From positions 281,001-345,000 of the forward strand of contig OY282373.1 in assembly GCA_958295805.1 (NCBI GenBank): DNA of 64,000 bases. Direction: 5' to 3'. Source of the DNA: an uncultured Nitrospirales bacterium (lineage in GTDB: Bacteria; Nitrospirota; Nitrospiria; Nitrospirales; UBA8639). The position numbers and the translations under genes were made by a program. The notes under the pieces are model-generated. The model worked only from the letters and a program-made list of their open reading frames with translations, searched no databases and was not told the DNA's origin. Below are positions 2,033 to 2,619 of this stretch, one piece after another. The first letter of the stretch is position 1, and the number at the start of each line of letters is the position of its first letter.

Positions 2033-2213
2033 AACACAATGGAACCTAATCCTGTGAATGCGTACTTTCCTTCAGTCAGTTATCACATTCGTTCAGAAAC
2101 AGGTGAAGTCGTCCCCGATTGCTAACAAGCTGGTTGTCCGGCTCAAACGCCTGGAAGTGCCAACTTTCCCGCCATTTCTTGACTTCTCTCGTTTCGCTTC
2201 GCTACTATCTCGT

Positions 2214-2565
2214 TGCGGGGTGGAGCAGTCTGGTAGCTCGTTGGGCTCAATACCGTAGGAGACAATATCCGCTGATTGCCGGAGAGATGCGCAATGAATC
2301 CTACGGTGGGCTGTACAGGAGGAAACTTCTGTACGATCACCTGTCAAATTCGGGGAAACCGGTAGCGGGGTAATCCCGAGCCAAGCTCTGATGGACGAAT
2401 CAGAGAAGGTGTAGAGACTTGACGGCAGGGTCCCTAACGGCGGCGATGAGCCGGTCCGCGGGAAAAGAGAAAGTCCAGACCACAAACTGGTTCATCCAGG
2501 CAGCGAAAGCTGTAGTGGCATGCATAACCCAAAGGTCGAGGGTTCAAATCCCTCCCCCGCAACCA
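2214..2565 (+). tRNA. Initiator tRNA-Met (CAT), interrupted by a group I intron
   Basis: The exons are 2214-2247 and 2523-2565. Joined, they form a complete cloverleaf: acceptor TGCGGGG/CCCCGCA, D-arm GAGC/GCTC, anticodon stem TTGGG/CCCAA with loop CTCATAA, T-arm GAGGG/CCCTC around TTCAAAT, discriminator A and an encoded CCA. Three consecutive G:C pairs in the anticodon stem are a hallmark of initiator tRNA. Position 1 is U opposite A72, so the mismatch used in E. coli (C1/A72) is replaced by a weak pair. The gene is broken inside the anticodon loop, between U33 and C34. The alternative junction C34/A35 reads equally well from sequence alone. Confidence 0.93.
2248..2522 (+). ncRNA. Group I self-splicing intron (IC3-like) in the initiator tRNA
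   Basis: The 275-nt insert carries group I core landmarks. P4 is TCGGG (about 2350) with CCCGAG (2375-2380). P6a is a perfect hairpin CTCTGAT/ATCAGAG (2386-2405). The P7 strands are AGACTT (2415-2420) and AAGTCC (2471-2476). A terminal GNRA hairpin CAGC-GAAA-GCTG lies near 2501-2512. The words GGGGAAACC, GAGCCAAGC and GTCCAGACCAC closely match those of tRNA-Leu introns in cyanobacteria. The intron follows U33 and ends in G, as group I chemistry requires. There is also an eight-base hairpin CCGTAGGA/TCCTACGG (2253-2306). No homing endonuclease is encoded. P1 could only be placed tentatively. Confidence 0.9.
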
Positions 2566-2585
2566 ACGAATCCCATGTCTGAATG

Positions 2586-2619
2586 AGGCCTTGTCGTGAC
2601 AAACGGCAGGGCCTTTTTG
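2586..2619 (+). terminator. Probable intrinsic terminator after the tRNA
   Basis: AGGCC (2586-2590) can pair with GGCCT (2610-2614), with a small inner TGT/ACA pairing. A run of five T follows. It begins 20 bases after the tRNA CCA end. Confidence 0.55.

Follow-up and report, generated by a model that had tools for sequence, protein, structure and literature searches.

Sole initiator tRNA gene of a Nitrospirales bacterium interrupted by a small group I intron

Main finding

The window considered here (64 kb, positions 281001-345000 of a single-contig genome of 2.904 Mb that is 99.85 % complete) contains an initiator tRNA gene interrupted within its anticodon loop. Very probably, the insert is a small tRNA-type group I intron that is located between U33 and C34 of the sole initiator tRNA gene, splices itself out, descends from a mobile element whose ORF was lost and is now vertically transmitted within its genus.

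The interrupted gene and its boundaries

All features of the gene are on the plus strand. The 5' exon (2214..2247) ends with U33 and was identical or nearly identical to intact genes of related genera, while the 3' exon (2523..2565) starts with anticodon base C34 and encodes the CCA end; both were delineated with ARAGORN and by comparison with intact genes. Joined, they form a perfect initiator tRNA-fMet(CAU), one base apart from intact genes of other genera in the same family (L057, L048). With introns allowed, ARAGORN reported a tRNA-Met(cat) at window positions 2214-2565 with an intron of 275 nt, and it also scored the joined exons alone as tRNA-Met(cat); in normal mode it found no tRNA in the 64-kb window. 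An earlier reading made from the letters alone (the sequence-only reading) had recognized a complete initiator tRNA in these exons; its coordinates and intron length were exact.

The bases CA are common to both ends of the window intron, which left two bases of ambiguous placement. Homologous introns start after GGGCT and display GCG, GTG, ACG, AGG or AAG as last bases, followed by CATAACCC. Because these ends differ before CATAACCC, the insertion site was fixed at U33|C34, a point that was constant across all aligned homologues; a splice site displaced by one or two bases was thereby ruled out.

A sigma-70-like promoter (TTGACT, 18 nt, TACTAT; 2179..2208) lies directly upstream of the gene, with nine of 12 consensus matches where 0.5 such sites were expected by chance in the region. 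On the 3' side, one terminator-like hairpin was found (2585..2615), against 0.6 expected. These sites may serve the gene and end its transcript, respectively, and their flanking positions are consistent with a single-gene transcript.

Architecture of the intron

The intron (2248..2522) starts with C and ends with G, as established by Rfam, covariation and the boundary shared among homologues. Its first part (2248..2307) forms an extended P1 hairpin and loop, where ~650-nt relatives carry an endonuclease ORF that was not encountered here. It is followed by the internal guide sequence GGGCT (2308..2312), which pairs with exon bases G30-U33 in P1 (GGCU with GGCU) and, together with bases just upstream, with C34-A35-U36 in P10. 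The 5' splice site is thus marked by a wobble between U33 and a guide G; this wobble and the terminal G were constant in every aligned homologue. In P10, the exon CAU faces GUG in the window copy and AUG in most relatives. The P2 hairpin (2313..2334) is capped by a GAAA tetraloop, and all nine of its pairs were changed on both sides across relatives. The catalytic core (2340..2426) comprises the P3 5' strand, P4, P5, P6/P6a, J6/7, the P7 5' strand and the P3 3' strand, and was recognized by Rfam; P8, the P7 3' strand, the P9 region with a second GAAA hairpin and the terminal G complete the intron (2427..2522), as seen from the alignment and the structure test described below. All helices from P2 to P9 were therefore present, with a single mismatched base pair in P8.

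Rfam model RF00028 (Intron_gpI) matched positions 2292-2491 over its full length with 33.0 bits (E 1.1e-6) under permissive settings. A scan of the window at gathering cut-offs gave no match because this score lies under the 50-bit gathering score; same-site introns from three genomes of the genus (G004, G010, G006) reached 59-60 bits and exceeded it. The predicted fold of the whole gene was 3.2 sd more stable than those of shuffled sequences.

A hand-written group I structure was tested on an alignment of 37 homologues (mean column identity 68 %) from Nitrospirota, Cyanobacteria, Methylomirabilota, Rhodothermota, Omnitrophota, Planctomycetota, Chlamydiota, Elusimicrobiota, Bacteroidota, Actinomycetota, Pseudomonadota and one Uhrbacterium. 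Paired cells amounted to 96.4 %, against at most 41.6 % in slid versions of the structure; 36 out of 57 pairs displayed changes on both sides, and covariation was 0.359, compared with 0.160 for shuffled and at most 0.087 for slid versions. None of 500 shuffles reached the observed value by any measure. The P3 and P7 helices, which form the pseudoknot, were paired in every sequence (100 %) with compensatory changes, one P7 pair occurring as four types (UA, GC, AU and CG); P10 was paired in 86 % of cells. RNAalifold recovered P2, P3, P4, P5, P6, P8 and P9; the pseudoknotted P7 cannot be drawn by this program.

The window intron thus displays a group I core with P3-P7 pseudoknot, P4, P5, P6 and P8. 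The alignment also contains a short P5 devoid of P5abc and GNRA-capped P2 and P9 hairpins, and the intron probably belongs to the small tRNA-type introns of subgroup IC3. The sequence-only reading had assigned the insert to group I on account of P4, P6, P7 and GNRA elements. Each of these elements was retrieved, the assignment was borne out by the match to Rfam, by covariation and by the agreement with splice-site rules, and the covariance-model search that it suggested accepted the core, albeit below the gathering score.

A single initiator tRNA gene per genome

A BLAST search with the whole gene hit one place in the genome, and a pattern for the 5' half allowing up to three mismatches matched only the interrupted gene. 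RF00005 detected 43 uninterrupted tRNAs, of which two displayed anticodon CAT; these were of elongator or Ile2 type and had no GGG/CCC initiator stem. No second initiator tRNA was thus found in the single-contig genome by BLAST, pattern or covariance model, which answers the gene count proposed beforehand with one gene, interrupted, and agrees with the earlier suggestion that the intron is essential by position. Since there is no other initiator tRNA, failed splicing should be lethal, and all translation initiation in the cell should require the intron to splice itself out.

The intron was encountered in all 11 genomes of the genus in which the fMet gene was found; each had a single gene and none had an intact copy. 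Sister genera displayed intact genes. In three further genomes of the genus (G007, G008 and G013; 90-100 % completeness) the gene was not detected in the assemblies; its flanks lay on two different contigs in G013 and the flank differed in G007. An assembly artefact was excluded, the insert being present in 11 genomes with conserved flanks in those compared.

As judged from the architecture, splicing would follow the standard two-step group I pathway, presumably without protein helper. After transcription the ribozyme would fold, and exogenous guanosine bound in P7 would attack after U33; U33, now with a free 3' OH, would in turn attack after the terminal G, joining the exons into tRNA-fMet with anticodon CAU. 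Introns of cyanobacterial tRNA-Leu and tRNA-fMet and of Azoarcus tRNA-Ile self-splice in vitro.

Alternative readings

The interrupted gene might be a dead copy, and an intact counterpart might lie elsewhere. Extra copies are possible in principle, since some relatives (G017, G049) possess two intact fMet genes, but the three genome-wide searches, the interrupted copy being the only one in each of the ten other genomes of the genus in which the gene was found, and the covarying pairs retained in the core have largely refuted this reading, which we regard as hardly credible. A separate acquisition of the window intron, by an invasion independent of that in the other genus members, seems unlikely. 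In the free intron tree the window copy paired with the ORF-bearing intron of G026 (88 % identity), a genome that does not belong to the genus, while the other ten formed a strongly supported clade without it, as would be expected if it had been acquired separately. Yet holding the genus as one clade gave a slightly better likelihood (p-AU 0.56), the window's genome was the first branch of the genus in the RpoB tree (89/85 support), a position expected under vertical descent, and the flanking genes were syntenic among the genus genomes compared. The intron therefore looks fixed and vertically inherited in the genus, and a single gain in the genus stem followed by vertical descent would be the simplest reading; retention would be favored because only an exact loss would restore the gene.

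Two further alternatives concern splicing itself. The fold may be right and splicing in the cell may still need a host factor; helper proteins, CYT-18 for example, are required by some group I introns (PMC3984707), and the Rfam score of the window copy was weaker than those of most relatives. The intact core of the window intron and the in vitro self-splicing of small tRNA introns of similar type argue against such dependence, which appears rather improbable. Far more speculative is the idea that splicing of the initiator tRNA, and of the only tRNA-Asn of this genome (see last section), is used and not just tolerated: ribozyme activity set by GTP or Mg2+ would limit the supply of initiator tRNA, and translation initiation would thereby follow the cell's energy state. 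We give this idea very little credence, and autonomous self-splicing from a sole gene copy remains the preferred reading.

Endonuclease ORFs in relatives and their loss

Several same-site relatives of ~650 nt harbored an ORF in the P1 loop. Three such ORFs were tested and matched PF11645 with 161-181 bits, and one ORF matched 2ost (E 1e-65), which we take to be the structure of I-Ssp6803I; their homology to this endonuclease was thereby established. In Synechocystis, a 655-nt tRNA-fMet intron carries the 150-aa I-Ssp6803I ORF (PMC1995217). The window intron displayed no frame that was endonuclease-sized or homologous, and a PF11645 search of the genus genomes gave no match, as was also the case for control genomes.

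Various stages of decay were observed. The ORF of G026 (L082) displayed a shifted N-terminal reading frame and that of L084 an internal deletion; C-terminal remnants were found in L121, L067 and L064. Within the genus, a short remnant in the P1 loop of G002 was significant (none of 200 shuffles scored as high), while the P1 loop of the window copy contained nothing significant when tested alone (64 of 200 shuffles as high). We infer that the genus intron derives from an ORF-bearing mobile ancestor with an I-Ssp6803I-type PD-(D/E)XK homing endonuclease encoded in the P1 loop: the ancestor of the genus would have gained the intron, the ORF would have been lost and the intron would since have been kept vertically.

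In four relatives (L066, L069, L099, L128) the endonuclease frame runs through P2-P6 and stops at the invariant UAG of J6/7, so that coding and catalytic sequences would overlap.

Distribution among phyla

Alignable introns at the same site were found in Cyanobacteria and at least about a dozen other phyla among the matches listed. The U33|C34 position was shared by cyanobacterial loci L087, L091, L098, L107, L108, L114, L116, L122, L127, L137 and others. On sequence grounds, the ribozyme cores of the window intron and of the cyanobacterial tRNA-fMet introns share descent. The host itself is not a cyanobacterium, as the sequence-only reading had suspected; the relatives named are Nitrospirae/Nitrospirales MAGs, those of its own genus being Nitrospirales MAGs (OX638327.1, VXOF01000082.1, JAHRAQ010000016.1 and JAJEJG010000023.1).

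The intron tree intermixed phyla, grouping Methylomirabilota with Nitrospirota (97/89) and Actinomycetota with Pseudomonadota (99/95). This mixture of hosts makes lateral movement between phyla likely, although many of the matches are MAG contigs that may be mis-binned. The horizontal spread considered plausible beforehand thus agrees with the same-site introns of many phyla, some with I-Ssp6803I-type ORFs; within the genus, however, descent looks vertical. A phage or virus source was rejected: in the viral contigs searched, no fMet 3' exon was preceded by an intron-type G.

Acidobacteriota (L106, L136, L139, L158) harbored a clearly divergent intron that ends at the same fMet position and has a long tree branch; it is perhaps an independent lineage. 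Initiator tRNA genes in which position 33 is C rather than U (L088, L093, L094, L097, L132, L140, L109 and others) were noticed in Weissella, Leuconostoc, Fructobacillus, Convivina, some Patescibacteria and others. Several Clostridia MAGs (L085, L126, L129, L166, L185) displayed a ~200-nt segment 3' of the fMet gene; it contains a fMet-like piece in inverted orientation as well as a direct repeat of the gene's 3' half, and resembles a small element that has integrated at the tRNA.

Comparison with known introns

Group I introns of cyanobacterial tRNA-fMet genes were reportedly described by Biniszkiewicz et al. in 1994. They share the host gene and type of small ribozyme with the window intron, and the copies compared (Nostoc, Calothrix, Moorena, Oscillatoria and others) were likewise inserted at U33|C34 and had a core that could be aligned with it. 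The window intron differs in its Nitrospirota host, in the absence of an ORF such as that of the 655-nt intron of Synechocystis PCC 6803, and in its presence in every genus member in which the gene was found, in contrast to a distribution reported as sporadic in cyanobacteria. The initiator tRNA of Nodularia is described as intron-free, unlike in "some other cyanobacteria" (PMC3610870). I-Ssp6803I (PD-(D/E)XK; PF11645, 2ost) was matched by ORFs in the P1 loop of the ~650-nt introns of Nitrospirota, Methylomirabilota and others and was absent from the introns of the window and of the other genus members.

The group IC3 introns of Azoarcus tRNA-Ile(CAU) and of cyanobacterial and plastid tRNA-Leu(UAA) are also small, are located in the anticodon loop and have a comparable core; their host tRNAs and insertion points differ from those of the fMet intron. 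Group I introns in the T-loop of tmRNA occur in 21 phyla, mostly without endonuclease (PMC11915505). They resemble the fMet intron in their tRNA-like host gene, wide distribution and general lack of an endonuclease, and differ in host gene and site.

The tRNA-fMet intron family is thus known, and its host range, fixation and sole-copy status are new; a search of the open-licence literature yielded no paper that brings group I introns and tRNA together with Nitrospira, which does not prove priority. An intron so far described from cyanobacteria now appears at one exact position in many phyla, with the I-Ssp6803I endonuclease as the likely vehicle of its spread, and the genus offers a clear case of a mobile intron that is devoid of its endonuclease and fixed genus-wide in an essential gene that has no second copy. 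Since plain ARAGORN and the Rfam default cut-off miss the gene, such genomes look as if they had no initiator tRNA; standard annotation misses initiator tRNA genes split in this way.

Other group I introns in the genus

The window's genome has a single tRNA-Asn(GUU) gene (L212, C1:830389-830811), and this too is split by a group I intron (RF00028, 73 bits), which is 347 nt long, follows U35 and differs from the fMet intron. It was present in eight of 14 genus genomes, the gene being intact in the other six; open-licence papers gave no mention of a group I intron in a bacterial tRNA-Asn. Group I introns near the CCTAAGGT|AGCGAAATTCC site of the 23S rRNA gene were also noticed in the window's genome and in further genomes of the genus (L224, C1:90826-91076, minus strand; also L227, L233, L236). 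The tmRNA genes of G004 and G011 (L234, L235) apparently harbor a group I intron within the T-loop, and a LAGLIDADG-like reading frame follows immediately downstream.
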